From positions 62,001-126,000 of the forward strand of contig JAIUPH010000031.1 in NCBI GenBank assembly GCA_020161065.1: 64,000 nt of DNA, given 5' to 3'. Below are positions 10,333 to 26,128 of the stretch, in pieces. The notes beneath the pieces are model-generated. The model ran no database searches and had not been told where the DNA came from. It worked only from the letters and a program-made list of their open reading frames with translations. The stretch comes from Pseudomonadota bacterium. Its GTDB lineage: Bacteria; Pseudomonadota; Gammaproteobacteria; Burkholderiales; Burkholderiaceae_C. Position numbers and translations under genes: made by a program. The number at the start of each line of letters is the position of its first letter. Positions within the stretch are counted from its first letter, which is position 1.

Positions 10333-10764
10333 ATGGACACCGACAAGCTGCTGATCGCCTGCCCGCACTGCGGGGTCACCAACCGCGTGCCGGCGGCGCG
10401 CGCCGCCGAGTCGCCGTCGTGCGGCAAATGCGGCAAGCCGCTGCTCGACGGCCACCCGCTGGAGCTGGGCGACGCCAACTTCGACGCCGTGGTCGCGGCC
10501 AGCCCGGTGCCGGTGCTGGTGGACTTCTGGGCGCCCTGGTGCGGCCCCTGCCGCGCGATGGCGCCGGCGTTCGCCGACGCGGCGCGCCAGCTCGGCGGCC
10601 GCGCGCTGCTGGTCAAGGTCAACAGCGACGAGAGCCCGGCCTTGAGCCAGCGCTTCGGCATCCGCAGCATCCCGACCCTGGTGCGACTGCAGCAGGGGCG
10701 CGAGACGCAGCGCCAGTCGGGCGCCGTCTCGGCGGCGGCGATCGTGCAGCTAGCCGCCGCCTGA
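10333..10764 (+). CDS. trxC: Thioredoxin 2 (TrxC) with N-terminal zinc finger
   Basis: 143 residues. An N-terminal zinc ribbon uses CPHC (Cys10, Cys13) and CGKC (Cys30, Cys33). The thioredoxin domain that follows carries WAPWCGPC (active cysteines 70 and 73) and the cis-Pro segment IRSIPTLVRLQQG. This is the TrxC architecture, a cytoplasmic disulfide reductase linked to oxidative stress responses. It diverges from the ECF sigma gene and its last 15 bp overlap the convergent ABC ATPase gene. Confidence 0.95.
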   Translation: MDTDKLLIACPHCGVTNRVPAARAAESPSCGKCGKPLLDGHPLELGDANFDAVVAASPVPVLVDFWAPWCGPCRAMAPAFADAARQLGGRALLVKVNSDESPALSQRFGIRSIPTLVRLQQGRETQRQSGAVSAAAIVQLAAA

Positions 10765-11799
10765 AGCGGCGCCGCCGCGCAGCCAGCAGGCGCAGGCCTG
10801 GCCCGGCGCCACGGCGCGCAGCGGCGGCAGCGCGCTGCGGCATTCGGGCACCTGCGCCTCGGGGCAGCGGGTGTGGAAGCGGCAGCCCGGCGGCAGCCGG
10901 CTGGGCGAGGGGATGTCGCCGCCCAGCAGCGCCGGCGGCGCGCCGCCGGCCAGCCGCGGCACGGCGGCCAGCAGCGCCTGGGTGTAGGGGTGCGACGGGC
11001 GTTCGAACACCGCGGCCACGTCGCCCTGCTCCAGCACCTTGCCCAGGTACATCACCGCCATGCGGTCGCACAGGTAGCGCACCACCGCCAGGTTGTGCGA
11101 GATGAACAGGTAGGTCAGCCCCTGCTCGCGCTGCAGCTCGCGCAGCAGCGCCAGGATCTGCGCCTGCACCGAAACGTCGAGCGCCGAGGTCGGCTCGTCC
11201 AGCACCACCAGCCGCGGCTGAAGCGCCAGCGCGCGGGCGATGCACACGCGCTGCTTCTGCCCGCCCGACAGCTCGTGCGGGTAGCGCCAGGCCAGCGCCC
11301 GCGGCAGGCTGACGCGGTCCATCAACGCATGCACGCGCTGCGCCAGCGCCGGGCCACGCTCGCCGCGCTGCACGCGCAGCGGCTCGCCGATGGCGTCGAA
11401 GATCGTGTGCCGGCCATTCAGCGCCGAGTGCGGGTTCTGGAACACGATCTGCATGTGCCGCCGCAGCTCGCGCAGGCGCGCGCCGGTGGCCGCCGTGATG
11501 TCCTCGCCGTCGAACACGATGCGGCCGGCGCTGGCATCGGCCAGGCGCAGCAGCAGCCGCGCCACCGTGGTCTTGCCCGAGCCCGATTCGCCGACGAGGC
11601 CGAAGCATTCGCCGCGCCGCAGTTCGAGGTCGACGCCGTCGACCGCCTTCACCGTGGTCTTGGCGAAGGCGCCGTTGGCGCGGTCGGCCACCTCGAAGCG
11701 CTTGCTCAGGCCTTCGGCGCGCAGCAGGACGTCACCATGACTCGCGTCGCCGTGGCTCGCAGCGTCGCGCGTCTGCGGGGCGATGGCGGCTTCAGGCAT
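10750..11799 (-). CDS. Dipeptide/oligopeptide ABC importer ATPase, DppF/OppF type
   Basis: 349 residues. Walker [10 protein letters not shown], signature LSGGQKQR and Walker [16 protein letters not shown] are all present. The C-terminal cysteine-bearing oligopeptide-transporter extension ([14 protein letters not shown]) is characteristic of Dpp/Opp ATPases. It is the last gene of the seven-gene minus-strand run that begins with the AroM-HTH fusion. Its start overlaps the end of the preceding DppD-type ATPase by 8 bp, and its end overlaps trxC by 15 bp. It powers uptake together with the DppD-type partner through the two permeases upstream. Confidence 0.94.
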
Positions 11800-12787
11800 G
11801 GTGGCAGGCCACGCGGTGCAGCGGCGCGCCGTCGGCCAGCGGCCGCAGCACCGGCCGCTCGCGCCGGCAGCGTTCGCTGGCCAGGGCGCAGCGCGGGTGG
11901 AAGCGGCAACCCGCCGGCGGCGCCAGCAGGTTGGGCAGGCTGCCGGCAATGCCTTGCAGCGCGGCGTGCGGGCCGTCGATGTCGGGCAGCGCGGCGAGCA
12001 GCCCGCGCGAATACGGGTGGCGCGGCGCGCGCAACAGTTCGTCGGCCGACGCGTCCTCGACGATGGTGCCGGCGTACATCACCGCCACGCGGCGGCACAC
12101 CGCGGCCACCGCGCCGAGGTCGTGGCTGATCATCACGCAGGCCAGCCGCAGCCGCGCCGCCAGGTCGCGCATCAGCGCCAGCACCTGGGCCTGGATGGTG
12201 ACGTCGAGCGCCGTCGTCGGCTCGTCGGCGATCAGCAGGCGCGGCGTGCCGACCAGCGCCATCGCGATCAGCACGCGCTGGCGCATGCCGCCCGACAGCT
12301 GATGCGGATAACGCGCCAACAGCGCGGCTGCATCGGGCAGGCGCACCAGCTCCAGCAGCTCGACGGCGCGCGCGCGCACCTGGGCCGAGGTGAGGGCCGG
12401 CGCCGCCGCTGCGCCGGGCGCGGCATGCTGCACGCGGATCACGTCGCCCAGCTGGCGCCCGATGCTGAGCACCGGGTTCAGGTAGGTCATCGGGTCCTGG
12501 AAGATCATCGCGATGCGGTGGCCGCGCAGCCGCCGCCAGGCGGCGGCGTCGCAGGCCAGCAGGTCTTCGCCGTCGAAAGCGATCGCGCCGCTGCGCACGC
12601 GCGCCGTGCGCGGCAGCAGGCCGATCACGCTGCGCGCCAGCACGCTCTTGCCGCAGCCGGTCTCGCCGACCAGGCCCAGCGTCTCGCCCTCGGCCAGTTC
12701 GAGCTCGACGCCGTCCAGCACCTTGACGGCACCGTCGAAGGTCTCGAAGTCGAGCCGGTAGTCGCTGATGCGCAGCAAGGCCGTCAT
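11792..12787 (-). CDS. Dipeptide/oligopeptide ABC importer ATPase, DppD/OppD type
   Basis: 331 residues. Walker [14 protein letters not shown], signature [15 protein letters not shown] and Walker [19 protein letters not shown] are complete, and the carboxy-terminal [14 protein letters not shown] extension is of the OppD/DppD type. Its ATG overlaps the stop of the DppC-type permease (ATGA), and its end overlaps the DppF-type ATPase, indicating translational coupling. It forms the heterodimeric motor with the DppF-type protein. The cargo is not a proven peptide; the AroM and hydantoinase context suggests a small cyclic or modified amino-acid compound. Confidence 0.94.
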
Positions 12788-13677
12788 GAGCTGCGGCTCT
12801 TCGGGTCGAGGATGTCGCGCAGCCCGTCGCCGAACAGGTTGAAGCCCAGCACCGTGAGGTAGATGGCCAGCCCCGGCGCCAGCGCGTACCACCACCAGTC
12901 GGGCATGTAGCTGCGCGCGATCGAGATCATCGAGCCCCACTCCGGCGCCGGCGCCTTGGCGCCGAGGCCGATGAAGCCCAGGCTGGCCGCCGCCAGCACC
13001 GCCAGCCCGAAGTCCATGCTGGCCTTGACGATCAGCGGCGACACGCAGTTGGGCAGGATGTGGCGGAACAGGATGTAAGGCGTGCTGGCGCCGACCGCGC
13101 GCGCCGCCTCGACGAACAGCTCCTGCTTCAGCGCCAGCGTCTTGCTCTCGATCAGCCGCACGTAGCCCGGCCACCACACCAGCGACAGCGCGATCACGCA
13201 GTTCATGATGCCCGGGCCCAGCGAGGCCACGATGGCCAGCGCCAGCGCCAGCCCGGGCACCGAGAGGAAGACGTCGGTCAGCCGCATGATGGCCTCGCGC
13301 GTGCGCCCGCCCACGTAGCCGGCGAAGATGCCCAGCGGCACGCCCACCAGCACCGCCACCGCGGTGATGACGAGGCCGATCCACAGCGAGGTGCGGGTGC
13401 CGACGATCACGCGGCTGAGGATGTCGTCGCCCATCTCGTCGGTGCCGAAGGGGTGCGCCAGGCTGGGCGGCTGCAGCTTGTTGTCCATGTGCACCGCGCC
13501 CTGGGTGTCTTCCGGGTACGGCGCGATCAGCGGCCCGAACGCGGCGAGCAACAGGAACAGCAGCACCAGCGCCAGCCCCAGCATCGAGCTGAAGCTGCGC
13601 CGGAACAGGTGCGCATACAGCCGCCACTGGCGCAGCGTGCCGGCATGGCGCTCGCGCCACGGGGTGCGGACTGCCAT
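12784..13677 (-). CDS. Dipeptide-type ABC permease, DppC
   Basis: 297 residues with an N-terminal membrane segment (LALVLLFLLLAAFGPLIAPY), the linker motif HPFGTDEMGDDILSRVIVGTR, and five further hydrophobic segments. The EAA loop reads EAARAVGASTPYILFRHILPN, and the end matches DppC (NLFGDGLRDILDPK). It is separated from the DppB-type gene by 133 bp that contain strong hairpins, unlike the tightly packed rest of the operon, so its level may be tuned by an intercistronic RNA structure. It forms the inner-membrane channel with the DppB-type permease. Confidence 0.94.
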   Translation of the reverse strand: MAVRTPWRERHAGTLRQWRLYAHLFRRSFSSMLGLALVLLFLLLAAFGPLIAPYPEDTQGAVHMDNKLQPPSLAHPFGTDEMGDDILSRVIVGTRTSLWIGLVITAVAVLVGVPLGIFAGYVGGRTREAIMRLTDVFLSVPGLALALAIVASLGPGIMNCVIALSLVWWPGYVRLIESKTLALKQELFVEAARAVGASTPYILFRHILPNCVSPLIVKASMDFGLAVLAAASLGFIGLGAKAPAPEWGSMISIARSYMPDWWWYALAPGLAIYLTVLGFNLFGDGLRDILDPKSRSS

Positions 13678-13810: not shown

Positions 13811-14818
13811 TCATGTTTCGCGCAGCCGCGGGTCGAGCCAGGCGTAGGCCAGGTCGATCGCGACGTTGATCAGCATGAAGCTCAGGCCGACGATCAGCGC
13901 CACGCCGATCACCGGTTGGAAGTCGGAGTACAGCGCCGACTGCACCGCGTACAGCCCGATGCCCGGCCAGTCGAACACCGTCTCCACCAGCACCGTGCTG
14001 CCCAGCATCCAGCCGAAGCGCAGGCCGATGATGGCCAGCGTCGGCAGCATCGCGTTGCGCAGCGCGTAGACGGCGACGATGCGCCACGGCGCGATGCCGT
14101 GCGCGCGCGCCGCGGTGATGTGGTCGCTGGCCAGCACCTCGATCATCTCGGCGCGGTTGACGCGCAGGATCGACGCCAGGCACGGGAACGACAGCACCAG
14201 CGCCGGCAGCACCAGGTGCTGCAGCGCCTGCCCGAAGGTGGCCCATTCGCCGCGCAGCGCGGCGTCGACCAGCAGCAGGTGCGTGATCGGCTCGGGCGGC
14301 GGCGTCGTGATCGGCAGCCGCCCCGAGACCGGCAGCCATTCGAGCTTGACCGAGAAGTACAGCTGCAGCAGCAGCCCGAACCAGAACGCCGGCAGCGCCA
14401 CGCCCGAGACCGAGAAGATGCGCGTCAGGTGGTCGAGCGTGCGGTCCTTGTACACCGCGCTCAGCATGCCCAGCGGCACGCCGACGACGATGCCCAGCGT
14501 CATCGCTGCCAGCACCAGCTCCAGCGTGGCCGGGAAGAAGCGCGCCAGCTCCTGCAGCACCGGCTTGGTGGAGACCATCGAGCGGCCGAGGTCGCCGCGC
14601 AGCACGCCGCCCAGGTAGTGCAGGTACTGCTGCGGCAGCGGCAGGTCGAGGCCGTGCTCGCGGCGGATGGTGTCCACCATGTCCTGCGTGGCGTTGGGCC
14701 CGGCGATCAGCCGCGCCGGGTCGCCCGGCGCGACCTGGGTGATCACGAACATCAGCGTGGCCAGGCCGAGCAGCATCACCGCCAGCAAAGCCAGGCGCTT
14801 GCCGACGACGATCAGCAT
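13811..14818 (-). CDS. Dipeptide-type ABC permease, DppB
   Basis: 335 residues with six predicted membrane segments. It starts with the family signature VGKRLALLAVMLLGLATLMF and VAPGDPARLIAGPNA, carries LDLPLPQQYLHYLGGVLRGDLG, and has the EAA-type loop around ITAARAHGIAPWRIVAVYALRNA. The C-terminus (SFMLINVAIDLAYAWLDPRLRE) is standard for DppB. It begins 43 bp after the binding-protein gene. Together with the DppC-type subunit it forms the translocation pore for the cargo delivered by the family-5 binding protein. Confidence 0.94.
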   Translation of the reverse strand: MLIVVGKRLALLAVMLLGLATLMFVITQVAPGDPARLIAGPNATQDMVDTIRREHGLDLPLPQQYLHYLGGVLRGDLGRSMVSTKPVLQELARFFPATLELVLAAMTLGIVVGVPLGMLSAVYKDRTLDHLTRIFSVSGVALPAFWFGLLLQLYFSVKLEWLPVSGRLPITTPPPEPITHLLLVDAALRGEWATFGQALQHLVLPALVLSFPCLASILRVNRAEMIEVLASDHITAARAHGIAPWRIVAVYALRNAMLPTLAIIGLRFGWMLGSTVLVETVFDWPGIGLYAVQSALYSDFQPVIGVALIVGLSFMLINVAIDLAYAWLDPRLRET

Positions 14819-14861: not shown

Positions 14862-16454
14862 CTACTTCGAGTCGATCCACAGCTCGTAGAGGTCGACTTC
14901 GCCGGTGAAGCGCACCGGGCTGAACTGGAAGCCCTTGAGGTAGTCGCGCTGCGCCCAGCGGCGGTTCTGGATCATGCCGAAGACCTCCGGCTGGTCGGCC
15001 ATGATCTGCTGCTGGATCTGCGCGTACAGCGGCGCGCGCTGCTCCCACTTGCCCAGCGAGCGCGCCTTGTCGATCAGCGCGTTGACCTGCGGGTTGTCGT
15101 AGTGGCTCATCGCGAAGTACTGGCCCCAGGCGTTGCGGTGGTACTGGTAGGCCACGGCGTCGGGGTCGGTGGAGATCGGCGTCACGTAGACGCTGGTCAT
15201 GTTGGGCGCCGTCTCGGGCTTGCTGCCCTTGGCCACCATGTTGGGCCATTGCTCGGCCACCACGTTGACCTTGATGTTGAGCTTCTGCAGGTTCAGCAGC
15301 AGCACCAGGCCGATGCGGCGCGCTTCTTCGAGGCCGGCCACGTGCACGTAGTCGAGCTCGATGCCGCCTTGCGGGTACGCTGATTTGGCAAGGTATTCGC
15401 GCGCCTTCGCCAGGTCTTGGGTCGGCCGGCCGGGCACGTCGATCTGGCCGCGCATGCCTTGCGGGAACGGGCTGGTCTCCAGGATCGCGGCGCCGTTGTA
15501 GATCTTCAGCATCGACTCGTAGTCGACCGCGTAGGCGATGGCCTTGCGCAGGTTGATGTCCTTGGTCGGCCCCTGCTGGGTGTTGAACTTGATGCCGAAG
15601 GTGGTCATGCCGACATGGTCCTGCACGACCGTGCCTTTGCTCTTCTTGAGCTGGTCGTAGTCCTCGGGCGTCAGGCCTTCGACGATGTCGGCCTCGCCGC
15701 GCGCCAGCGCCGCCTTCAGCGCCGCCGGCTCGCGGATGATGCGGTAGACGATGCCGGCCGGCCGCTTGGCCTCGCCCATCGGCCAGCCCTTCCAGTAGCC
15801 CTCGTTGGCCACCAGCTCGTGCAGCGTGTTCTGCTCCCAGCGCTTTTGCTTGTAGGGGCCGCTGCCGGCGCTGTTCTCGGTGAGCCACTTCTGGCCGTAG
15901 TCGCCGCCCTCCTCGTGCGCCTTCACCTGCTTGGGGTTGACGATGTACCACCACGGCACCCAGCCGATGAAGGGCGCGTAGCCCTGCTTGAGCGTGAAGC
16001 GCACGGTGTTCGCGTCGACCACCTGGATGCCCGACGGGTCGAGGAAGTCCTTGAGCATCCAGGCCACGCCCTTGTTGAGCTTGAGGCCGCGCTCGAAGCT
16101 GTAGCGCACGGCCTCGGCGTCGACCGGGTCGCCGTTGTGGAACTTGGCGTTCTTCACCAGGTGGAAGGTCCACACCTTGGCGTCGGCGCTGGACTCCCAG
16201 CGCTCGGCCAGCCAGGGCTCCACCTTGGCCGGGTTGCCGCTGTACTTGGCCAGCGCGTCGTACACGGCCTGCTGCATCATGCGCGTGCTCCAGTCGTAGC
16301 GCACGTGCGGGTCGAGCACGGGCACCTGCTGGCGGCCGCCGAAGACGATCACCTTGCGGTCGCCGGCACGCTCGAAGGCCTGGGCCGGGGCCAGCGCCGC
16401 GGCCAGGCAGATGCCGGCCAGCGCCGCCAGCGCGAGAGGTCGCAGTGTGGTCAT
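14862..16454 (-). CDS. Family-5 ABC extracellular solute-binding protein (DppA-like)
   Basis: 530 residues. A Sec signal peptide (about 1-26, LALAALAGICLAAALAPAQA) precedes an SBP_bac_5 fold of typical length: LDPHVRYDWST, WTFHLVKNAKFHNGDPVDAEAV, GSGPYKQKRWEQ and LRKAIAYAVDY mark the expected lobes. It lies between the stand-alone AroM gene and the DppBCDF-type genes and supplies their periplasmic receptor. A ribosome site AGAGGAG precedes the ATG; upstream of that the spacer holds a G-run quadruplex motif on the opposite strand. Family-5 proteins bind peptides, opines, nickel complexes or glycosides, so the ligand is open. Confidence 0.93.
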   Translation of the reverse strand: MTTLRPLALAALAGICLAAALAPAQAFERAGDRKVIVFGGRQQVPVLDPHVRYDWSTRMMQQAVYDALAKYSGNPAKVEPWLAERWESSADAKVWTFHLVKNAKFHNGDPVDAEAVRYSFERGLKLNKGVAWMLKDFLDPSGIQVVDANTVRFTLKQGYAPFIGWVPWWYIVNPKQVKAHEEGGDYGQKWLTENSAGSGPYKQKRWEQNTLHELVANEGYWKGWPMGEAKRPAGIVYRIIREPAALKAALARGEADIVEGLTPEDYDQLKKSKGTVVQDHVGMTTFGIKFNTQQGPTKDINLRKAIAYAVDYESMLKIYNGAAILETSPFPQGMRGQIDVPGRPTQDLAKAREYLAKSAYPQGGIELDYVHVAGLEEARRIGLVLLLNLQKLNIKVNVVAEQWPNMVAKGSKPETAPNMTSVYVTPISTDPDAVAYQYHRNAWGQYFAMSHYDNPQVNALIDKARSLGKWEQRAPLYAQIQQQIMADQPEVFGMIQNRRWAQRDYLKGFQFSPVRFTGEVDLYELWIDSK

Positions 16455-16532: not shown

Positions 16533-17198
16533 TCAGACGATCTGCTGCACGGCGCCGGCGACGACGCGGCGCGCCAGCAGCACGGGCTTGTCGACGATGG
16601 CCGCGACGCGCGCGCGCATGGCCTCGGTGTAGCCCATGCAGTGCATCACGACGAGGTCGCTGTCGGCGAGCTCGTGGGCCGCGGCCTCCAGCCGGTCGCC
16701 GCTGTACGGCGAGTAGTGCGCCGCGCTGACGTGGCGCTGCTCGCTGCTTTGCAGGTGGAACTCCTGCACCTGGCGCGCCAGCGGCAGCATCACGCCGAGG
16801 CGGCGGCAGCCCAGCGAGAAGGCGTCGACCATCGCATCGACGACGCGCTGCGCCTCGATCAGCAGCGTGCGGCTGCCCAGTTGCTCGAAGTAGCCGGTGC
16901 ACAGCAGCGTGATGGCGTCGAAGCGCTGGCGGTCCAGCTCGTCGAACAGCGCCTGCAGCCGCGCGCCGGTCTCGCGCTTGCCGATCACCACCTCGCTGCC
17001 GTCGCGCAAGCGCGTGGCCAGGCTGGCCTCGCCCGGTGGCGGCAGCATGCGGGCGATCTCGGCGGGGCCAAGGCCGTCGAGCGCGCCGAACTCGACCGCC
17101 TCGACCTCGCCGTGCACCGCCGCCAGGATCTCGGGCAGCATGTCCACGCGCGGCGACTGGCCGATGGTGACGAAGGCAACGCGGGGCGCATGGGGCAT
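16533..17198 (-). CDS. AroM-family protein (stand-alone)
   Basis: 221 residues from the ATG at 17198. It matches AroM-family proteins over its whole length: VAFVTIGQSPRVDMLPEI, EFGALDGL, LLCTGYFEQLGSRTLL, LVVMHCMGYTE and LLARRVVAGAVQQIV. The biochemical role of AroM is unknown; the fold appears related to the two-lobed Asp/Glu/hydantoin racemases, and this copy has a cysteine in each half (Cys100 and Cys187) at places resembling the racemase thiols. That suggests an enzyme, by inference only. It is followed by the ABC importer genes, preceded by an AroM-HTH fusion paralogue, and lies close to a hydantoinase-family operon. Confidence 0.85.
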   Translation of the reverse strand: MPHAPRVAFVTIGQSPRVDMLPEILAAVHGEVEAVEFGALDGLGPAEIARMLPPPGEASLATRLRDGSEVVIGKRETGARLQALFDELDRQRFDAITLLCTGYFEQLGSRTLLIEAQRVVDAMVDAFSLGCRRLGVMLPLARQVQEFHLQSSEQRHVSAAHYSPYSGDRLEAAAHELADSDLVVMHCMGYTEAMRARVAAIVDKPVLLARRVVAGAVQQIV

Positions 17199-17286
17199 GG
17201 CGGGGCTCGGGGGCGGGGCGGCGCGACGAGGGTATGCCAAGCCCGGGGCGGCGACCCATACGGGCGAACACGTAAGCGGGCGGCCG

Positions 17287-17316
17287 GCCGGCAGCAAGCC
17301 GGCAGCAAGCCGGCAA
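17287..17316 (+). repeat. 11-bp tandem repeat just after the aroM-HTH stop codon
   Basis: The unit GCCGGCAGCAA occurs at 17287-17297 and 17298-17308 and partly at 17309-17316. The stop codon of the minus-strand AroM-HTH gene is at 17318-17320, so the array lies immediately downstream of it in the spacer before the next aroM gene. Confidence 0.85.
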
Positions 17317-17317
17317 G

Positions 17318-18301
17318 TCAGGACGCCGGCGACTCGACCCCCAGCACCATGCGGATCAGCGCGCCGACCGAAGCGGCGCCCATCTTTTCCATCATGCGCG
17401 CGCGATGGATCTCCACCGTGCGCGGCGAGATGTCGAGCTGGCGGCCGATGGCCTTGTTGCTGAGGCCCTCGGCCACCAGCGACATCACCTGCCGCTCGCG
17501 CGGCGTCAGCGTCTGCATGCGCGCGGCGGTGGCGGCCGCGGCGCCGTCGCCGGCGCGCTCGTCGACCAGCGGCGGCGGCGGGCGGCGGCTGCCGCCGGGG
17601 TCCAGCAGCAGCCGGATGGCGCCGGCCACCACGCGCCGCGCCAGGATCACCGGCCGCCCGGTGCGCGCGGCCACCGCCTCGCGGTCGGCCTCCACGTAGC
17701 CCACCGAATGCAGCACCACGAAGTCGCAGCCGCGCAACTCGTCGGCGGCGCGCCGCAGGCCGGCCGCGTCGCCGCCGGCGGCGTGGCTGAAGCGCAGCGC
17801 GCAGCCCGGCACCGAGTAGCCGGCGTTCTCGTCGACCTGGCGGCGCAGCGGGTAGATCACGCCCACCGCCTGGCCGGCGGCGGCCAGCGCGGCGATGGTG
17901 GCGTCCATCGCGCGCTGGGCGTTGACCGTCGGGCACTCGCTCTCGAACTCGCGGAACAGCCCCGTCGTCAGCACGATCAGCAGGTCGAAGCGCGCCGGGT
18001 CGATCGCGCGGCAGATCGCCTCCATGCGCTGCGCCAGCCGCTGGCGCGACAGCACCACCTCGCGGCCGTCGCGCAGCCGCGTCACCAGGCTGCCTTCGTC
18101 GGCGCGCGGCGCCAGCGCGGCGATCTCGCGTTCGCTCAAGCCGTCGAGGGCGCCGAACTCCTGCACCTCCAGCGCCATCGGCAACTGCGCCAGGATGTCG
18201 GGCACCACGTCGCCGCGCGGCGACTGGCCCAGCGTGAGGCTGGCCACGCGGCGCACGGCGCCGGCAGGCGAACCCGGCGAGGCGGGCGGATCGGTCGGCA
18301 T
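17318..18301 (-). CDS. AroM-domain / FixJ-type LuxR HTH fusion regulator
   Basis: 327 residues from the ATG at 18301. Residues 17-233 form an AroM domain (VASLTLGQSPRGDVVPDI, EFGALDGL, ILARRVVAGAIRLLL) clearly paralogous to the next gene's product. A proline-rich linker (234-262) leads to a LuxR/FixJ HTH (264-322) with LTPRERQV and SPRTVEIHRARMMEKMGA. The AroM half thus takes the place normally held by a receiver domain. Both cysteines of the stand-alone AroM are replaced here (Thr112 and Ser199), which suggests it senses rather than converts a ligand. First gene of the importer operon and divergent from the DUF917-hydantoinase operon, it probably controls both. I know of no characterised protein with this architecture. 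Confidence 0.88.
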   Translation of the reverse strand: MPTDPPASPGSPAGAVRRVASLTLGQSPRGDVVPDILAQLPMALEVQEFGALDGLSEREIAALAPRADEGSLVTRLRDGREVVLSRQRLAQRMEAICRAIDPARFDLLIVLTTGLFREFESECPTVNAQRAMDATIAALAAAGQAVGVIYPLRRQVDENAGYSVPGCALRFSHAAGGDAAGLRRAADELRGCDFVVLHSVGYVEADREAVAARTGRPVILARRVVAGAIRLLLDPGGSRRPPPPLVDERAGDGAAAATAARMQTLTPRERQVMSLVAEGLSNKAIGRQLDISPRTVEIHRARMMEKMGAASVGALIRMVLGVESPAS

Positions 18302-18385
18302 GGGGCGGGCGGCGCGGCGGCGCGATGGCGTGGTACGGGGCTCGCGAGGCAGTGTAGGGCAGCGCCGCAGCACCGACGGCGGCGG

Positions 18386-18393
18386 CTACGTAG
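18386..18393. promoter_or_regulatory. Candidate FixJ-type box in the divergent promoter region
   Basis: The perfect palindrome CTACGTAG lies near the middle of the 161-bp region between the AroM-HTH gene (start 18301) and the DUF917 gene (start 18463), 85 and 70 bp from the two starts. The TAC/AGTA core resembles FixJ-type recognition sequences, and the neighbouring regulator carries a FixJ-like HTH. No other match was sought beyond this region. Confidence 0.35.
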
Positions 18394-18462
18394 GCATCCT
18401 GATTTGCGCCGCCGCGGCCGCGGCGTACCGTGCCGCCACCCTCAAAGAGCAGGCTCAGCAGC

Positions 18463-19557
18463 ATGCAACGTCCCATCGAAGCCGGCGAGATCGAAGCCCT
18501 CGCCATCGGTGCCTGGATCCTCGGCACCGGCGGCGGCGGCAACCCGTATCTCAACTACCTCAACTGCCGCAAGCTGGTCGACGAAGGCGCGCGGCTGACG
18601 TTGATGGACCCGATGGACCTGGCCGACGACGACCTGGTGGCCGTGGTCTCCAACATGGGCGCGCCGCTGGTCGGCCAGGAGCGGCTGAACGACCCCGCCA
18701 CCGCGGCGCGCGCGGTGACGATGATGGAAGAGCATCTCGGCCGGCGCTTCCGCGCCGTGATGAGCGTGGAGATCGGCGGCGGCAACGGGCTGCAGCCGCT
18801 GCTGGTGGCGGCGCAGAAGAACATCCCCGTCGTCGACGCCGACGCCATGGGCCGCGCCTACCCCGAGGCGCAGATGACCAGCTTCGCCATCGGCCGGCTG
18901 CCGATGGCGCCGATGTCGCTGGCCGACGTGCGCGGCCACGAAGTGCTGATCACCAAGGTGACGAGCTGGAAGTGGATGGAGCGCATCGGCCGCAAGATCG
19001 TCACCGAGGTCGGCTCGATCGCCAGCACCTGCAAGGCGCCGCGCAGCGGCCGCGAGGTCAAGGACTGGGGCATCCACTACACCACCACCAAGGCCATCCG
19101 CCTGGGCCAGGCGGTGCTGGCCGCGCGCGCGCGCCACGCCGACCCGATTGCCGCGGTGCTGGAACACGAAGGCGGGCAGCAGGTCTTCCGCGGCAAGATC
19201 AGCGACATCCAGCGCCGCGCCACCGAAGGCTTCCTGCGCGGCAAGGCGACGATCGAAGGCCTCGACGGCGACCGCGGCCGCAGCCTGGTGCTCGACTTCC
19301 AGAACGAGTTCACCGTCGGCACCATCGACGGCGAGGCGGTGGTGATGACGCCCGACCTGATCTGCGTGCTCGACACCGTGTCGGGCGAGGCCATCGGCAC
19401 CGAGACGCTGCGCTACGGCCAGCGCGTCACCGTCATCGCGCTGCCGGCGCCGCCGGTGCTGACCAGCCCCGAAGGGCTGCAGCACGTGGGCCCGCGCGCC
19501 TTCGGCTACGACATCGATTTCCGCTCGGTGTTCACCGGCGCAAGGGGCGTGCAATGA
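18463..19557 (+). CDS. DUF917 (PF06032) protein, S-methyl-thiohydantoin desulfurase-like
   Basis: 364 residues. The start ILGTGGGGNPYLNYLNCRKL, MDPMDLADDDLVAVVSNMGAP, MSVEIGGGNGLQPL and VVDADAMGRAYPEAQM are typical of the family long called DUF917 (COG3535). To my knowledge, PF06032 is now associated with S-methyl-thiohydantoin desulfurase, so a role on hydantoin-like rings is plausible, but the substrate here is not shown. The length matches full two-domain members. The stop overlaps the ATG of the hydantoinase-family gene (ATGA), and the same two genes are often paired. It diverges from the AroM-HTH/importer operon, whose regulator is the likeliest controller. Confidence 0.88.
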   Translation: MQRPIEAGEIEALAIGAWILGTGGGGNPYLNYLNCRKLVDEGARLTLMDPMDLADDDLVAVVSNMGAPLVGQERLNDPATAARAVTMMEEHLGRRFRAVMSVEIGGGNGLQPLLVAAQKNIPVVDADAMGRAYPEAQMTSFAIGRLPMAPMSLADVRGHEVLITKVTSWKWMERIGRKIVTEVGSIASTCKAPRSGREVKDWGIHYTTTKAIRLGQAVLAARARHADPIAAVLEHEGGQQVFRGKISDIQRRATEGFLRGKATIEGLDGDRGRSLVLDFQNEFTVGTIDGEAVVMTPDLICVLDTVSGEAIGTETLRYGQRVTVIALPAPPVLTSPEGLQHVGPRAFGYDIDFRSVFTGARGVQ

Positions 19558-21113
19558 AGCGCATCGGCATCGACGTGGGCGGCACCAACACCGATGCGGT
19601 GCTGGTCGAGAACGACGCGGTGGTCGACGCCGTCAAGGTGCCGACCACCGAAGACGTGATGAGCGGCGTGGTGGCCAGCCTGCGCGCGCTGCTGGCGCGC
19701 GTGGGCGAGCGGGCCCGCCCGCTCGACGCCGTGATGATCGGCACCACCCACTTCATCAACGCCGTGGTGCAGCGGCGCGAGCTGGTGCGCACCGCGGCGC
19801 TGCGCATCAGCCTGCCGGCCTCGCAATCGCTGACGCCGATGATCGACTGGCCGCGCGACCTGCGCGCCGCCGTCGACCCGCTGGTCTTCATGGTCGAAGG
19901 CGGCCACGAATACGACGGCCGCGTGTTCATGCCGCTGGACGAGCGCGCCGTGCGCGAAGCGGCGCAGCGCATCAGCGACAGCGGCGTGCGCACGCTGGGC
20001 ATCAGCGCCACCTTCTCGCCGCTGACCGCCGAGCACGAGCTGCGCGCCGCCGAGATCGTGCGCGAGGTCGACCCCGGGCTGGCGATCACGCTGTCGCACC
20101 GGCTCGGCCGCATGGGGCTGCTGGAGCGCGAGAACGTCACCCTGCTCAACGCCTGCCTGGCGCCGCTGGGGCGCACCACCATCGCCGCCTTCAAGGCCGC
20201 GCTGCAGGCCACCGGGCTGGAGGCGCCGTTCTACCTGACGCAGAACGACGGCACCGTCATGCTGGCCGAGGTGGCGGCCGAGTTCCCGGTCTACAGCTTC
20301 GCCAGCGGCCCCACCAACAGCATGCGCGGCGCGGCCTTCCTGAGCCGGCTGGACGGCGCGATGGTGGTCGACGTCGGCGGCACCACCAGCGACATCGGCT
20401 GCCTGGTGCACGGCTTCCCGCGCGAGGCCAACAACGTGGTCGAGGTGGGCGGCGTGCGCACGCTGTTCCGCATGCCCGACCTGCTGTCCATCGGCCTGGG
20501 CGGCGGCACGCTGGTGGTCGAAGGCGAAGGCCAAGGCGGCCAACCCGCCGTCGGCCCGCGCAGCGTGGGCTTCCGCCTGCCGCAGAAGGCGCTGGTGTTC
20601 GGCGGCGACACGCTGACGGCCACCGACATCGGCGTCGCCGCCGGCCTCATCGACCTCGGCGACAAGCGCCTCGTCAAGCACCTGAGCGCGGGCCTGGTGA
20701 AGGCCACGCTGGCGCGCATCACGGCGATGCTGGAAGAAGGCATCGACCGCATGAAGACGCAGGCCGACGACGTGACGCTGATCGCCGCCGGCGGCGGCGC
20801 CTTCCTGATCCCCGAGCGGCTGGCCGGCGTGGGCCGCGTGCTGCAGGTGCCGCACGCCTCGGTGGCCAACGCCGTGGGCGCGGCGATCGCCCAGGTCTCG
20901 GGCGAGGTCGACCAGGTCTTCACCAACATCGGCCGCGACGCCGCGCTGGCACAGGCCAGGACGCTGGCCGAGCAGCGCGCCGTGCACGCCGGGGCCGACG
21001 CGGCGACGCTGAAGCTGGTCGACATCGAAGACCTGCCGCTGGCCTACCTGCCCGGCGGCGCGATGCGCGTGCGCGCGCGGGTGGTCGGCGACATCGCGGC
21101 GGCCGGCGCCTGA
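19554..21113 (+). CDS. Hydantoinase/oxoprolinase (HyuA)-family protein
   Basis: 519 residues. It begins with the phosphate-binding motif IGIDVGGTNTDAVLV and repeats the theme at VVDVGGTTSDIGCLV; other family marks are GTTHFINAVVQRR, GHEYDGRVF, ERENVTLLNACLAP, FASGPTNSMRGAAFL and LIAAGGGAFLIPERL. This is the half-length HyuA-type protein of the hydantoinase/5-oxoprolinase superfamily, which couples ATP hydrolysis to opening cyclic amides; no HyuB subunit follows, and this class is usually paired with DUF917 proteins as seen here. Translation is coupled through the ATGA overlap. It ends four bases before the convergent hydroxyproline importer operon. Confidence 0.9.
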   Translation: MKRIGIDVGGTNTDAVLVENDAVVDAVKVPTTEDVMSGVVASLRALLARVGERARPLDAVMIGTTHFINAVVQRRELVRTAALRISLPASQSLTPMIDWPRDLRAAVDPLVFMVEGGHEYDGRVFMPLDERAVREAAQRISDSGVRTLGISATFSPLTAEHELRAAEIVREVDPGLAITLSHRLGRMGLLERENVTLLNACLAPLGRTTIAAFKAALQATGLEAPFYLTQNDGTVMLAEVAAEFPVYSFASGPTNSMRGAAFLSRLDGAMVVDVGGTTSDIGCLVHGFPREANNVVEVGGVRTLFRMPDLLSIGLGGGTLVVEGEGQGGQPAVGPRSVGFRLPQKALVFGGDTLTATDIGVAAGLIDLGDKRLVKHLSAGLVKATLARITAMLEEGIDRMKTQADDVTLIAAGGGAFLIPERLAGVGRVLQVPHASVANAVGAAIAQVSGEVDQVFTNIGRDAALAQARTLAEQRAVHAGADAATLKLVDIEDLPLAYLPGGAMRVRARVVGDIAAAGA

Positions 21114-21117
21114 TCGC

Positions 21118-22137
21118 TCAGGCCACCGCCAGCGTTTGCCAGCGCTTCAGGAAGTCGGCGCGCTTGGCCGCCGCTTCGTCCTCGTCGATCGGGAACACCT
21201 TGATGCCGGCCAGCGGCGGCAGTTGCACGAGCTTGGAGACGTCGATGTCGCTGCGCGCCGGGCGGCGGTAGGCGGCCAGCAGCAGCTCGGTCTGCGCTTC
21301 CTTGCTCAGCAGGTGGTCGCAGGCCTTCTTCGCCAGCTCGCCGGCCGGCGCGCCCTTGATGAGCGCGAAGAACTCCGGCGTCGTGAACGTGCCGTCGGCC
21401 GGGTAGACGAGGCTGATCTCCTTCTGCCCGCCGGCCACGTAGGCATAGGCGTTCGACTCGAACGTCAGGCCGACGGCGAACTCGCCCTGGCCGACGCTGC
21501 GCAGCACGGTGGCCGCGGCGCTCGTCACCTTGACGTTGGCGGCCAGCCGCTTCAGGCCTTCGGCGCCGAGCATCTTGTCGACGCCCCACAGGATCGTCAG
21601 CGCCGTGCTGCTGTTGGCCGGGTCGGCGATGAGGATCTTGCCCTTGAAGCGCGGGTCGAGCAGGTCGGCCCAGGTCTTCGGCGCGGCGCCGCCGCCGAGC
21701 TGCTTGGTGTTCACCATCGCCACCGCGACGTGCAGGTTGGCGGCCGACCACAGGTTCTGCGGCTGCTGCAGCGCCGCCGGAATGGCCGCCAGCTCGGGCG
21801 AGCGATAGGGCTCGAGCAGGTGCTTGAAGGCGCCCAGCGTGTTGGCCGAGGTGCTCCAGAACACATCGCCCTGCGGCTTGGCGGCTTCGGCCTCCAGCCG
21901 GCGCAGCAACTGGCCCGAGCCGCCGGTGATGGCCGAGAACTTGACGCCGGGCAGCCGCTTCGCGGCCGTCTCGACGACGGCCTCGAAGGCCTGCTGGTTG
22001 TTCGACGTGTAGATGACGACCGAGCCGCTTTGCGCGCGGCTGGGCAGCGCGAGCGTGGCGCCGAGGCCGGCCAGGCCGGCCAGGGCGGCGCGGCGGTTCA
22101 AGAGGTGGTCGTTGCGGTGGTCGTTGCGTTGGGTCAC
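21118..22137 (-). CDS. Iron(III)/phosphonate-type ABC extracellular binding protein, likely hydroxyproline importer
   Basis: 339 residues from the GTG at 22137, chosen because AAGGAG ends about 6 bases upstream; an ATG 21 bases earlier lies in front of that site. After a twin-basic signal peptide (NRRAALAGLAGLGATLALPSRA) the mature part reads VVIYTSNNQQAFEAVVETAA and GDVFWSTSANTLGAFK, as in AfuA/FbpA and 2-aminoethylphosphonate binding proteins. Last gene of the minus-strand lhpC-ATPase-permease-SBP operon, so the ligand may be hydroxyproline or a related imino acid rather than iron; this is inferred from context. The N-terminus carries a duplicated RNDH caused by a 12-bp tandem repeat. Confidence 0.88.
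   Translation of the reverse strand: MTQRNDHRNDHLLNRRAALAGLAGLGATLALPSRAQSGSVVIYTSNNQQAFEAVVETAAKRLPGVKFSAITGGSGQLLRRLEAEAAKPQGDVFWSTSANTLGAFKHLLEPYRSPELAAIPAALQQPQNLWSAANLHVAVAMVNTKQLGGGAAPKTWADLLDPRFKGKILIADPANSSTALTILWGVDKMLGAEGLKRLAANVKVTSAAATVLRSVGQGEFAVGLTFESNAYAYVAGGQKEISLVYPADGTFTTPEFFALIKGAPAGELAKKACDHLLSKEAQTELLLAAYRRPARSDIDVSKLVQLPPLAGIKVFPIDEDEAAAKRADFLKRWQTLAVA
22105..22128 (-). repeat. Two perfect tandem copies of a 12-bp unit inside a signal-peptide coding region
   Basis: GTGGTCGTTGCG occurs at 22105-22116 and 22117-22128 in the reading frame of the binding-protein gene, encoding RNDHRNDH. Being a multiple of three it leaves the frame intact. Confidence 0.9.
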
Positions 22138-22181
22138 GGCGGTCTCCTTTTCTGGCATTCGAGGGCGTCGATGGTCGCCCA

Positions 22182-23897
22182 TCAGGCACGGGAGGCGAAG
22201 AGGTCGATGCGGGTCAGGCGCGTCGCCAGCACGATCGGCAGCACGATCACGGCCACCAGCAGCAGGCCGTAGGCCGAGGCCTGCGCCATCAGGCCGCTGT
22301 CGATCAGGCGGAAGATCTGGATCGGCATCGTCTCGCGGCCGCCCGAGTAGACGATGATGCTGGCGCTCAGCTCGGCCACCGTGGTGGTCCAGGTCAGCAC
22401 CGCGGCGGCGACGATGGCCGGCGCCATCAGCGGCAGCACCACGCGCACGAAGCTGCGCCCCGGCGGCACGCCCAGGCTGATCGACGCCTCCTCGATCGAA
22501 TCGGGGATGTTGAACAGCGTGCTCGACGCGTTGCGCGTGCCGAACGGCAGCCGGCGCACGACGTAGGCCAGCACGATGATCGAGCCGGTGCCGGTGAGCG
22601 AGAGCCAGCCGGTGTTGAAGGTCATCAGCAGGCCGATGCCGATGACCGTGCCCGACAGCGCCAGCGGCAGCGCCGTCAGGTAGTCCAGCGCCGGCGTCAG
22701 CGCATTGCGCTTCTTCACGACCAGGTAGCTGACGATGACCGCCAGCGTGATGCCGATCGCGGTGGCGATGGCGGCGTAGGTCAGCGTGTTCAGCAGCGGG
22801 TCGATGGCGCGCGTGAACACGCGCTCGAGGTGCGCCGTCGTCCACTGGCCCCAGCGCATCACCGGCCCGCGCGCCTGCGTGAAGGCGCCGACCGCGATGC
22901 TGGCCACCGGCAGCAGCGACACCGCGACGACGAGCGCCGCCGCCGCGCCGAGCGCCGCGCCGCGCCAGCCGGCCAGCCGCGCGGGCACCGCCCCGCGGCC
23001 CTGCACGACCTCGCGCCGGCCGCGCGCGACGACGCGGCGCTGCGCGAACAGCGCCAGCATCACGATGGCCACCGAGATCGTCGCCAGCGTGCTTTGCAGC
23101 GTCGGGTCGGAGCCGACCTCCGACACCGTGGCCTGGTAGGTCAGCACCGACAGCAGCGGCACCTTGTTCGACAGCACCATCGCCACCGCGAAGTTGCCGA
23201 CGGCGAGCGTGAAGACGAGCAGCGCGCTGGCCAGCACCGCCGGCAGCACGACCGGCAGCATCACCTTCCAGCGCGAGACGGCCGGCGAGGTGCCCAGGCT
23301 CTGCGCCGCCTCTTCGAGCTGCACGTCGAAGCCGCGGATCGCCGCCAGCGTGCCGATGTAGACGTAGGTGTAGTAGGTGAAGGTCATCACCGTCACGAGG
23401 CCGGTCCAGCCGTAGAAGCTGGGCAGCTCGATGCCGCGCTCGGCCAGTGCGCGCGTCAGCAGGCCGTTGTTGCCGACCATCATCAGCCAGGTCTGCGCCG
23501 CGATGACCTCCGGCACGACCAGCGTCACCAGCGGCAGCACCGCGATCAGCCCCTTGCCCGGGAAGTCGAAACGCGCCGTGAACCAGGCCAGCGGCACGCC
23601 GATGACCAGCGCCAAGAGCGTGACGACGGCGCCCAGCATCACGGTGTTGAGCACGGCCTGCAGGTAGCGCGGCTCGGCGGCAACGATCGCCCAGCCCGAG
23701 CGGCCGCCGCTGCCGAAACTGCCGACGAGCACCTGCACCAGCGGCAGCAGCAGGAAGACGACCAGCAGCGCCAGCACGGCCAGCGTCAGCCACGGCCAGG
23801 GCGTGCGCAGCGAACGCAGCAGCGACGCCCGGCGCAGCGCCGGCCCTGGCACGCCAGAGCGGGCGGGGGCGGGGGCGGCAGCGCCGGCGTCGTTCAT
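22182..23897 (-). CDS. ABC permease, FbpB/AfuB-type with two fused membrane halves
   Basis: 571 residues with about twelve hydrophobic segments arranged as two homologous halves, each with a binding-protein-dependent transport EAA loop: one near EEAAQSLGTSPAVSRWKVML and one near EASISLGVPPGRSFVRVVL. This is the double-domain permease of ferric-iron, phosphonate and putrescine/thiamine-like importers. It overlaps the upstream ATPase gene by 4 bp and is followed by the binding-protein gene. Together with them and the LhpC-like gene it forms a minus-strand operon, which points to uptake of the compound degraded by the hydroxyproline enzymes. Confidence 0.92.
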   Translation of the reverse strand: MNDAGAAAPAPARSGVPGPALRRASLLRSLRTPWPWLTLAVLALLVVFLLLPLVQVLVGSFGSGGRSGWAIVAAEPRYLQAVLNTVMLGAVVTLLALVIGVPLAWFTARFDFPGKGLIAVLPLVTLVVPEVIAAQTWLMMVGNNGLLTRALAERGIELPSFYGWTGLVTVMTFTYYTYVYIGTLAAIRGFDVQLEEAAQSLGTSPAVSRWKVMLPVVLPAVLASALLVFTLAVGNFAVAMVLSNKVPLLSVLTYQATVSEVGSDPTLQSTLATISVAIVMLALFAQRRVVARGRREVVQGRGAVPARLAGWRGAALGAAAALVVAVSLLPVASIAVGAFTQARGPVMRWGQWTTAHLERVFTRAIDPLLNTLTYAAIATAIGITLAVIVSYLVVKKRNALTPALDYLTALPLALSGTVIGIGLLMTFNTGWLSLTGTGSIIVLAYVVRRLPFGTRNASSTLFNIPDSIEEASISLGVPPGRSFVRVVLPLMAPAIVAAAVLTWTTTVAELSASIIVYSGGRETMPIQIFRLIDSGLMAQASAYGLLLVAVIVLPIVLATRLTRIDLFASRA

Positions 23898-25063
23898 CGC
23901 GCCAGCACCAGCGTGGCCGTGGGGTCGAAGGCCAGCAGCGCGGCGTCGCCGACCTGGTGCGCGTCGTGCCCGGCGCCGTGGCGGTCGACCTGCAGCTCGG
24001 CGCCGCTGGCGAGCTGCACGCGGTAGCTCGTCTTGTCGCCGAGGAACTGGCGGCGCAGCACGCGCACGGGCAGCGCCGCGGCGCCGGCGCCGGCGCCGGC
24101 ATCGGCATCGGCGTGCGCCAGCCGCAAGGTCTCGGGCCGCGCCATCAGCAGCGCCTCGCCGGCGCCCAGCGCCGCGACGGCGAGCGCCGCCAGCCGCGTC
24201 GGCGCGCCGCCGGGGCCGCCCGCCAGCACCGCCTGCGCCGTCTCGCCGGCCGCCGCGGCGCGCGCCAGCGTCACCGGCAGCAGGTTGGCCGCGCCGACGA
24301 AGTCGGCCACGTAGCCGGTGGCCGGGCGGCGGTAGATCTCGGCCGGCGTGCCGACCTGTTCGAGCCGGCCGCGGTTCATCACGCCGATGCGGTGCGACAG
24401 CGCCAGCGCCTCGTCCTGGTCGTGGGTGACGAAGACGGTGGTGATGCCGGCCTCGGCCTGCAGCTCGGCGATCGTCTGCCGCACCTGCAGGCGCAGCTTG
24501 GCATCGAGGTTGGACAGCGGCTCGTCCATCAGCAGCACCTGCGGCTGGATGACGAGGGCGCGGGCCAGCGCCACGCGCTGGCGCTGGCCGCCGGACAGCG
24601 CCGCCGGCAGGCGCGCGGCCAGCGCCGCGAGGCCCACCCGTTCGAGCGCCTCGCCGACGCGGCGCCGCACGCCCGCGGCATCGACGCGCCGCGCGCGCAG
24701 GCCATAGGCGACGTTGTCGAACACCGTCTTGTCGGGGAACAGCGCGTAGTCCTGGAACACCATGCCGATGTCGCGCAGGTGCGGCGGCAGCGCGGTCACG
24801 TCGCGCTCGCCGAAGCGGATGCGGCCGCCGCGCGCCGGCACGAAGCCGGCGATCGTGCGCAACAGCGTCGTCTTGCCGCAGCCGCTGGGACCCAGCAGCG
24901 TGAAGAACGAGCCGCGCTCGATGTCGAGGTCCAGCGCCTCGATGACCGCCTGCGCGCCGTAGTCGACGCTGAGCGACTCGATGTGGATGCCGGGGCTCGC
25001 GGCCGCCGCGCCGGCCGCGGGGCGGGCGGTTCGCGCCGGGGCCTCGGGGGCGGCGGAACCCAT
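23894..25063 (-). CDS. ABC importer ATPase, PotA/FbpC type with TOBE domain
   Basis: 389 residues. Walker [10 protein letters not shown] at 58-66, the Q-loop [17 protein letters not shown], signature [16 protein letters not shown], Walker [16 protein letters not shown] and switch histidine FVTHDQDEA are complete. A C-terminal regulatory TOBE-like region (about 260-389) follows, interrupted by a low-complexity [13 protein letters not shown] stretch encoded by hexamer repeats (24080-24109). It starts 17 bp after the LhpC-like gene with a GGGAG ribosome site, and overlaps the permease gene by 4 bp. It energises the importer for the putative hydroxyproline-type substrate. Confidence 0.93.
24080..24109 (-). 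repeat. Hexanucleotide repeat tract in the ATPase gene
   Basis: Three copies of GGCGCC (24080-24097) followed by two of GGCATC (24098-24109), in frame, encode the alternating [10 protein letters not shown] segment. Such tracts can change length in whole-codon steps. Confidence 0.85.
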
Positions 25064-25080
25064 GGGCGCTCCCTCTCGTT

Positions 25081-26019
25081 TCAGCGCAGCGCGCGCGCCG
25101 GCGGCAAGCCCACCTCCGGCAGCAGCGGCCGCCTGGCCAGCGCCTCGTCCATCACACGCTCGACGTGCGCGAGGTCGTCGCCCTGCAGCGGCAGCCGCGG
25201 CGCCCGCGTGCGCCAGCTGCCGCGGCCCATGCGGTGCTCGCACCACTTGATGCACTGCACGAGGTCGGGCCGCGCGTCGAGGTGCAGCAGCGGCATGAAC
25301 CATTCGTACAGCGGCATCGCCTCGGCGTAACGCCCGCCGCGCGCCAGGCGGAACAGCGTCTCGCCCTCGCGCGGAAAGGCATTGCTCATGCCGCTGACCC
25401 AGCCGACCGCGCCCATCGCGACGCTCTCGACGACGACGTCGTCGAGTCCGGCGAAGAGCACGAAGCGCTCGCCGACGCGACGTCGCGTGTCGATGAAGCG
25501 GCGCGTGTCGCCCGAGCTGTCCTTGAAGCAGACGATGGTGTCGCAGTCGGCCAGGCTGGCCAGGATGTCGGGCGTGATGTCGTTCTTGTAGATCGGCGGG
25601 TTGTTGTAGACCATCACCGGCAGCTCGGTGGCGCGCGCGACGCTGCGGAAATGCGCTGCCGACTCGTGCGGCTTGGCGCTGTAGACGAGCGCCGGCATGA
25701 CCATGATGCCGTCCACCTTCGCCGCCGCGGCGGCGCGCGCCGTCTCGATGGCGTTGGCGGTCGTGAACTCGGCGATGCCGCAGATCACCGGCACGCGGCC
25801 GCGCGCCACGCCCACCGCGGCCTCCATCACCTGCACCTTCTCGGCGCGCGACAGCGAGGTGTTCTCGCCGACCGTGCCGCAGACGATGAGGCCGGAGACG
25901 CCGTCGCCGACGAGGCCGTCGATGACCTTCGCGGTGGCGTCGACGTCGAGCGAGGCGTCGTCGCGGAACTGCGTCGTGACGGCGGGGAAGACACCTTGCC
26001 AGGAGATGCGCGCGCTCAT
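25081..26019 (-). CDS. DapA-family lyase, probable 1-pyrroline-4-hydroxy-2-carboxylate deaminase (LhpC-like)
   Basis: 312 residues of the dihydrodipicolinate synthase / N-acetylneuraminate lyase family. The Schiff-base lysine is Lys166 in [10 protein letters not shown], the catalytic tyrosine is Tyr138 in VMVYNNPP, and the loop ICGTVGEN-like segment lies at residues 45-52. Such proteins next to a hydroxyproline epimerase and a D-amino-acid oxidase usually deaminate 1-pyrroline-4-hydroxy-2-carboxylate to 2-oxoglutarate semialdehyde; this assignment follows from the neighbours, since the family has many substrates. It is the first gene of the minus-strand operon with the importer and shares a palindromic promoter region with the divergent GntR gene. 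Confidence 0.88.
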
Positions 26020-26074
26020 CGGTGGGAACCTCGTCGGGGGTGCGGGCGTTGCCGGGACACGCCTCGGGTTGGGG

Positions 26075-26122
26075 TTGCCGTCGATCGTACAATTTATACA
26101 ATCGACGACGCGAGCCCGACAA
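26075..26122. promoter_or_regulatory. Divergent overlapping promoters with a 25-bp GntR-type operator
   Basis: An AT-rich imperfect palindrome fills 26081-26105: each 12-base arm reads TCGATnGTAnAA towards a central T (10 of 12 positions symmetric). On the plus strand TTGCCG (26075-26080), 16 bp, TACAAT (26097-26102) could serve the GntR gene. On the minus strand TTGTCG (26122-26117), 18 bp, TATAAA (26098-26093) could serve the LhpC/importer operon. Both -10 elements lie inside the palindrome, so binding would block both. Confidence 0.65.
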
Positions 26123-26128
26123 ACCCTG

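Follow-up and report, generated by a model that had tools for sequence, protein, structure and literature searches.

At the centre of the locus lies a gene whose product joins an AroM domain (PF07302) to a C-terminal GerE/LuxR-type helix-turn-helix (HTH; PF00196), flanked on one side by genes for a second, stand-alone AroM and a peptide-type ABC transporter, and on the other by divergent genes for a DUF917 protein and a hydantoinase A-like protein; positions in the window (the whole stretch of 64,000 nucleotides that was analysed) are compiled in Table 1. Both domains score above the curated Pfam cut-offs, with 168.6 bits against 23.8 for AroM and 78.3 bits against 23.5 for the HTH, which places the fusion protein in the AroM family and among the LuxR/FixJ-type proteins alike. 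The preliminary description had put the two domains at residues 17-233 and 264-322 and had noted an adjoining AroM paralogue; the Pfam limits of 20-230 and 263-319, and a match of 217.8 bits for the frame at 16533-17198 (minus strand), bear this out. A receiver domain was not found in the fusion protein by the Pfam scan, residues 20-230 being taken by AroM instead, so that the protein is not a NarL/FixJ response regulator, nor was there a match to PF01177 at E 0.01, which separates it from the Asp/Glu/hydantoin racemases. The nearest PDB sequences to the HTH are two FixJ chains, 1x3u (E 1.8e-18) and 5xso, and the recognition helix, SPRTVEIHRA, is nearly identical to that of 1x3u. An in-frame GTG upstream, at 18373, provides a second possible start, and four consecutive prolines in the linker are confined to the window's protein among 25 fused proteins. 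An AlphaFold model built from a two-row alignment was poor (pLDDT 49.5), and its fold matches, NarL, arylmalonate decarboxylase (2vlb, the second match) and FixJ, are taken as agreement only.

Table 1. Genes, domains, residues and candidate operators at the fusion locus (window coordinates)
Feature	Position	Strand	Basis
Two ABC ATPase reading frames, OppD/OppF type (approximate limits)	10750..12787	-	translations; blastp 58% to Neorhizobium ATPase
ABC permease, OppC type	12784..13677	-	named by translation and place
ABC permease, OppB type	13811..14818	-	named by translation and place
Peptide-type ABC transporter substrate-binding protein (SBP_bac_5)	14862..16454	-	Pfam
Stand-alone AroM, both cysteines (C100, C187)	16533..17198	-	PF07302, 217.8 bits
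Proposed operator 2, ahead of the AroM and transporter genes, exact dyad TACGGGCGAACACGTA	17259..17274		pattern scan, f104 matrix
AroM-LuxR/FixJ-type fusion gene, 327 aa, stop included	17318..18301	-	ORF call
FixJ-like HTH, residues 263-319, recognition helix SPRTVEIHR	17345..17515	-	PF00196, 78.3 bits; FixJ 1x3u alignment
AroM domain (putative non-catalytic ligand sensor), residues 20-230	17612..18244	-	PF07302, 168.6 bits
Ser199 codon (aligned with AroM Cys187)	17705..17707	-	alignment
Thr112 codon (aligned with AroM Cys100)	17966..17968	-	alignment
Proposed operator 1, divergent promoter region, TACGTAGGCATCCTGA, one mismatch to TAVGK-N6-MCBTA	18387..18402		pattern scan
DUF917 / S-Me-THD-like protein, divergent from the fusion	18463..19557	+	PF06032 and PF20906
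Hydantoinase A-like protein	19554..21113	+	PF05378 and PF01968

The DUF917 protein was also considered as a thiohydantoin desulfurase, and this was rejected, both NCBIfam models lying far under their cut-offs (107.8 against 450 and 80.2 against 440). A separate cluster at 21118-27861, with an ABC transporter, a DHDPS-family gene (25081-26127, by Pfam), a GntR-type regulator and a proline-racemase-like gene, looks like one for hydroxyproline use, all its genes except the DHDPS one being named by eye.

The fusion is unlikely to be an assembly artefact, since the same architecture is found in a second genome of the genus (G006), in another class of the phylum, and on plasmids of Neorhizobium, Ketogulonicigenium and Shinella. 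At E 0.001, PF07302 was matched in 2 of 60 genomes of the genus, 6 of 299 of the family, 6 of 349 of the order and 14 of 398 of the phylum, each of these sets including the window's own genome and the sets as a whole overlapping, and furthermore in 13 of 337 genomes of another class of the same phylum (that of G828), in 1 of 17 in the family of G1072 and in 58 of 75 in that of G1309 (f104). A tblastn search of plasmids returned six records with at least 80% query cover; the four examined (one Neorhizobium, two Ketogulonicigenium, one Shinella) all carry the fusion, annotated there as hypothetical protein or AroM family protein with no HTH in the name. Eight loci from the search of genome contigs with the fusion protein were set aside, their similarity being confined to residues 222-321 at the HTH end, and a viral scan with the AroM alignment gave no AroM relative.

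The fused AroM domain and the stand-alone AroM of the window are 43% identical. It had been suggested that the fusion carries Thr112 and Ser199 where stand-alone AroM has Cys100 and Cys187, and the alignment places T112 opposite C100 and S199 opposite C187, such that the fusion has neither residue of the two-cysteine AroM type. In turn, C100 and C187 align with both conserved cysteines of the hydantoin racemase 2eq5 (E 0.0012) and, at an hhalign probability of 96.1, with those of the PF01177 racemases, the racemase profile spanning residues 77-221 of the stand-alone protein; in the PF01177 family both of these cysteines are catalytic. Among 98 distinct domains, the two sites read Met/Ser in 14, Ser/Ser in 7, Ser/Ala in 3 and Thr/Ser in 1 of the 25 fused ones, and Cys/Cys in 65, Ser/Cys in 7 and Ser/Ser in 1 of the 73 single ones, the lone Ser/Ser case (L059) being a weak partial match of 39 bits. 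Sixteen more single domains are all Cys/Cys, and AroM of E. coli K-12 is Ser/Cys. With one truncated single domain (Cys at the first site, the second absent) left out of the counts, a cysteine occurs at either site in 0 of 25 fused domains, and both are present in 81 of 90 single ones, a further 8 of which, E. coli included, have the second cysteine only. After thinning at 70% identity, from which L059 and the truncated fusion L125 were excluded, none of 12 fused domains has a cysteine, and of 21 single domains 19 are Cys/Cys and 2 Ser/Cys.

This tabulation of the two sites in fused and single proteins had been proposed as the test of an enzyme-to-sensor transition, which was to fall if fused domains kept the cysteines as often as single ones. 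The idea came through in that respect; loss of a single cysteine, on the other hand, is not peculiar to fusions, since AroM of E. coli K-12 and seven of the nine single domains of family f58 are unfused and do not have the first one. The E. coli gene (L139:2929-3606) encodes Ser at the first site and TIGIVPM in place of the GQSPR motif, and its product is, judged from these residues, an atypical one-cysteine member of the family; the same Ser/Cys pair is common to the seven f58 domains.

A tree was computed from 68 domains (23 of the 25 fused and 45 of the 73 single), with the cysteine columns omitted and near-copies from f104 thinned; L059 and L125, both kept in the site table, were dropped from it. 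The 23 fused domains form one side of a branch with 99/97 support, recovered in 99% of 200 bootstrap trees, in a tree that is unrooted and for which the program warned of long branches, some of them on fused rows. The simplest reading of this topology is a single origin of the fused domains, and the loss of both cysteines would then most simply be one ancestral event and not 25 independent ones. As a consequence of the common branch, the contrast between fused and single domains does not amount to 25 independent observations. On the single-origin reading, later changes would have produced Thr, Ser or Met at the first site and Ser or Ala at the second.

The remaining motifs of the family are largely retained. 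T101, G102, P139 and Q143 (AroM numbering) are present in all 25 fused domains, G13, P16 and R17 in 24, the 25th being truncated there, and Y190 in 23, with Phe in the other two; this pattern argues for a folded and used AroM domain in the fusions. It could be taken to mean that the fused half is still an enzyme, working through Ser, Thr or another residue, with the HTH as a DNA tether or the whole as a trigger enzyme, i.e., a catalyst that also regulates. In line with this, the Asp/Glu racemase superfamily includes one-cysteine members, such as arylmalonate decarboxylase, and the E. coli AroM pair is Ser/Cys. Such a continued catalytic role is nevertheless unlikely, as both cysteines are absent from all 25 fused domains examined, and the Met found at the first site in 14 of them and the Ala at the second in 3 would be unfit for the same acid-base chemistry. 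Loss of both cysteines and a first site that may be Thr, Ser or Met would also suit a degenerating passenger, or a plain dimerisation module that binds no ligand and leaves the regulator constitutive. This appears very unlikely in view of the motifs kept across the fused set and of the comparison between the window and G006, in which the fused domain is 77% conserved, about as well as the single AroM with 80%.

The gene order is conserved. In all 24 loci that could be assessed (the 25th, L125, is a contig fragment), the fusion stands head to head with a DUF917/hydantoinase A cluster, which is a usual layout of a regulator and its target. DUF917 is the first divergent gene in 23 of the 24; in L099 it is DUF1177, followed by PepE, DUF917 and hydantoinase A. 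Many f104 loci (L097, L115, L118, L121, L122, L123 and others) have a tandem pair of DUF917 reading frames. AroM genes without a fusion (L039-L042, L108-L112) often lie beside DUF1177, PepE or an OPT transporter, and they also occur in Bacillota (Niallia, Paenibacillus) and on an archaeal plasmid (Salinigranum). A stand-alone AroM follows the fusion directly in the window, G006 (L094), L035, L096 and L099, and was not found in the stretch retrieved for 7 of the 24 fusion loci, two of which (L117, L124) are short or at a contig end; in three genomes among these (G1207, G1296, G1389), a search of the whole genome gave the fused copy only, so that the putative sensor has no need of the enzyme. 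That the regulator instead senses its partner, forming mixed dimers with the stand-alone AroM and so reading the state or amount of the enzyme, would fit the five loci with AroM directly downstream and the 43% identity of the window's two domains, and is highly improbable given the seven loci, and the three whole genomes, in which that partner was not found. In L036, L037, L038, L100 and L101 the fusion has no nearby stand-alone AroM, and the genes behind the second site described below encode an M20 hydrolase, an OPT transporter with an Asp/Glu racemase, or OppA.

Two candidate operators were identified in the window. Operator 1 overlaps the palindrome CTACGTAG (18386-18393), of which the 64-kb window has a single copy although none is expected; it is the weaker of the two proposed sites, about three sites with one mismatch being expected by chance in 64 kb. 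Operator 2, TACGGGCGAACACGTA, is one base from the commonest operator of f104, which belongs to another class of the phylum. Class 1 patterns (TACGTA or TACGT-N6-ACGTA) occur in 18 of the 24 divergent regions, at 2.96 per kb against 0.016 elsewhere in the same loci, and the class 2 pattern (TARGG-N6-CCYTA) in 4, at 0.66 against 0.002 per kb. Both classes fit one 16-bp dyad, TAVGK-N6-MCBTA, found exactly in 19 of the 24 regions (3.1 per kb, compared with 0.018 in the remainder of these loci) and with one mismatch allowed in all 24 (0.13 per kb elsewhere), contrasts that are inflated by the pattern having been composed after the loci and published FixJ sites had been viewed, and that stem from about nine lineages, 13 of the 24 regions being from f104. 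As a control, 24 AroM loci without the fusion (408,915 bases) contained no exact dyad and 22 sites with one mismatch (0.054 per kb); the first patterns gave 6 class 1 and no class 2 matches there, the nearest 748 bases upstream of the DUF917 frame in L041. Among these control loci, L133 belongs to a genome with a fusion on a different contig, and the sole AroM match of L102 is the weak L059.

Nine exact dyads lie outside the divergent regions, and seven of these precede whichever transport or enzyme gene comes next. The gene so preceded is AroM for the sites in the window (17259), L094 (10637), L095 (6860) and L035 (10992), OppA for that in L101 (3188), the OPT transporter for that in L038 (10956), and the M20 hydrolase for that in L037 (8883), a site that touches the fusion stop codon. 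The remaining two are L115 16167 and L120 3431. Second sites with one mismatch precede AroM in L096 (10403), OppA in L100 (3085) and, by eye, M20 in L036. A less circular test is provided by a weight matrix trained on 10 distinct f104 operators alone. It ranked 17259-17274 first in the window, with 21.1 bits against 4.5 for the next site, placed the top site of L094 between the fusion and AroM, and returned both expected sites as first and second in L100, L101 and L038; in 5 of the 10 loci (L096, L095, L035, L036, L099) no expected site ranked first, and L036 contains one unexplained site of 12.4 bits. The reading of the fusion as a regulator, already put forward in the preliminary description, is favoured by the divergent neighbouring operon together with these conserved FixJ-type dyads.

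In the f104 loci, the dyad lies immediately ahead of the probable fusion start, a position that would suit autorepression, while in the window some 85 bases separate operator 1 from the downstream fusion ATG at 18301. A sigma-70-like promoter was not found at 17150-18520. A wider regulon was sought through CTACGTAG, which occurs at 5 places in the window's 6.29-Mb genome (26 for the pattern read backwards), and was abandoned, the other four places showing no visible link in the open reading frame lists. The divergent region of L099 (5873-5982) has direct repeats of the AGTGCGAAGCACC type at an exact spacing of 23 bases, and its fusion is the one with the helix TVEKHR instead of TVEIHR or TVDIHR; the repeats are perhaps a changed operator that matches the changed helix. 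Directly after HR[AS] in the fusion HTHs, most class 1 loci have Arg, and class 2 loci, like FixJ, have Asn, Gln or Lys; G006 (Lys) and L096 (His) are exceptions, and the position may act as a specificity switch.

Among known systems, FixJ is closest in HTH sequence, in the recognition helix SPRTVE[IV]HRA and in operator geometry. PMC4999443 gives GTAGTTTCCC and GTAMGTAG as FixJ SELEX consensus motifs and TAAGTAATTTCCCTTA as the fixK site; that natural site and the fixK2 oligonucleotide, taken from PMC4682037, both contain an exact TAVGK-N6-MCBTA dyad. The FixJ-like HTH of the fusion seems to have kept a FixJ-like DNA code, its binding being predicted, with AroM in the receiver's place, and the gene neighbours, DUF917, hydantoinase and transporter, differ from those of FixJ. 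As a member of PF07302 the fusion carries the full domain; it departs from the family in that the 25 examined fusions have neither cysteine, bear a C-terminal HTH and form a branch of their own. The Asp/Glu/hydantoin racemase superfamily (PF01177; 2eq5; 2vlb) is matched by the stand-alone AroM, with its cysteines aligned, whereas the fusion scores as AroM without a PF01177 match. One-component LuxR-type regulators with a sensor before the HTH are an already known kind. EL222, which was among the PDB matches, has its sensor before a GerE HTH and works without a kinase, like the fusion, and acyl-homoserine-lactone LuxR is likewise of this build; the fusion differs from these in that its sensor would come from a racemase-like enzyme.

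Taken together, the fusion is probably a one-component regulator in which a former AroM enzyme serves as a putative sensor and which would switch uptake and breakdown genes through FixJ-like dyads. An AroM-type domain, distantly akin to the racemases, would have been joined to a FixJ-type HTH, most simply once in an ancestor, and, as alignment and tree suggest, would have lost both cysteines, with much of the conserved motif set retained. The protein is predicted from the conserved sites to bind TACGT-N6-ACGTA or TARGG-N6-CCYTA dyads at two places, one separating its own gene from the divergent DUF917-hydantoinase A pair, the other ahead of the AroM and peptide-transporter genes. A small molecule of the pathway, bound by the AroM half, would alter how the protein dimerises or binds DNA and thereby control uptake and breakdown, ligand binding taking the place of the phosphorylation step of FixJ. 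The company of DUF917, hydantoinase A, AroM and a peptide transporter points to a cyclic or carbamoylated amino-acid or peptide compound, and the ligand is probably a cyclic or N-carbamoyl derivative of this kind, imported by the transporter. Along these lines, we see an even chance that the fusions constitute a separate family of one-component regulators, derived from one fusion of a racemase-like enzyme with a FixJ HTH, which kept the 16-bp geometry, later acquired the TACGT and TARGG codes, and responds to a hydantoin-, thiohydantoin- or cyclic-dipeptide-like ligand.

PMC11055893 describes AroM as not experimentally characterised, reports PF07302, DUF917 and PF01177 genes together in cyclodipeptide-oxidase clusters, and finds the predicted AroM fold nearly identical to hydantoin and Glu/Asp racemases. 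Nothing on point beyond that paper was found on thiohydantoin breakdown, and no publication on an AroM-LuxR regulator or an enzyme-derived LuxR sensor came up in a search that mostly lay outside subscription journals; as far as was searched, a one-component LuxR-type regulator with an enzyme-derived sensor is previously undescribed. For the AroM family, this natural, putative sensor offers a functional handle, and conserved sites link it to genes for DUF917, hydantoinase A, AroM and transporters. Comparing the enzyme with its paired sensor form would reveal how such a fold turns from catalysis to sensing once two residues are lost, and the regulator with its two proposed operators could serve as a reporter in screening for the compound of the pathway. 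If the fusions are indeed a separate family, AroM/DUF917/hydantoinase A pathways would have a dedicated regulator and, with it, a built-in reporter of their ligand.
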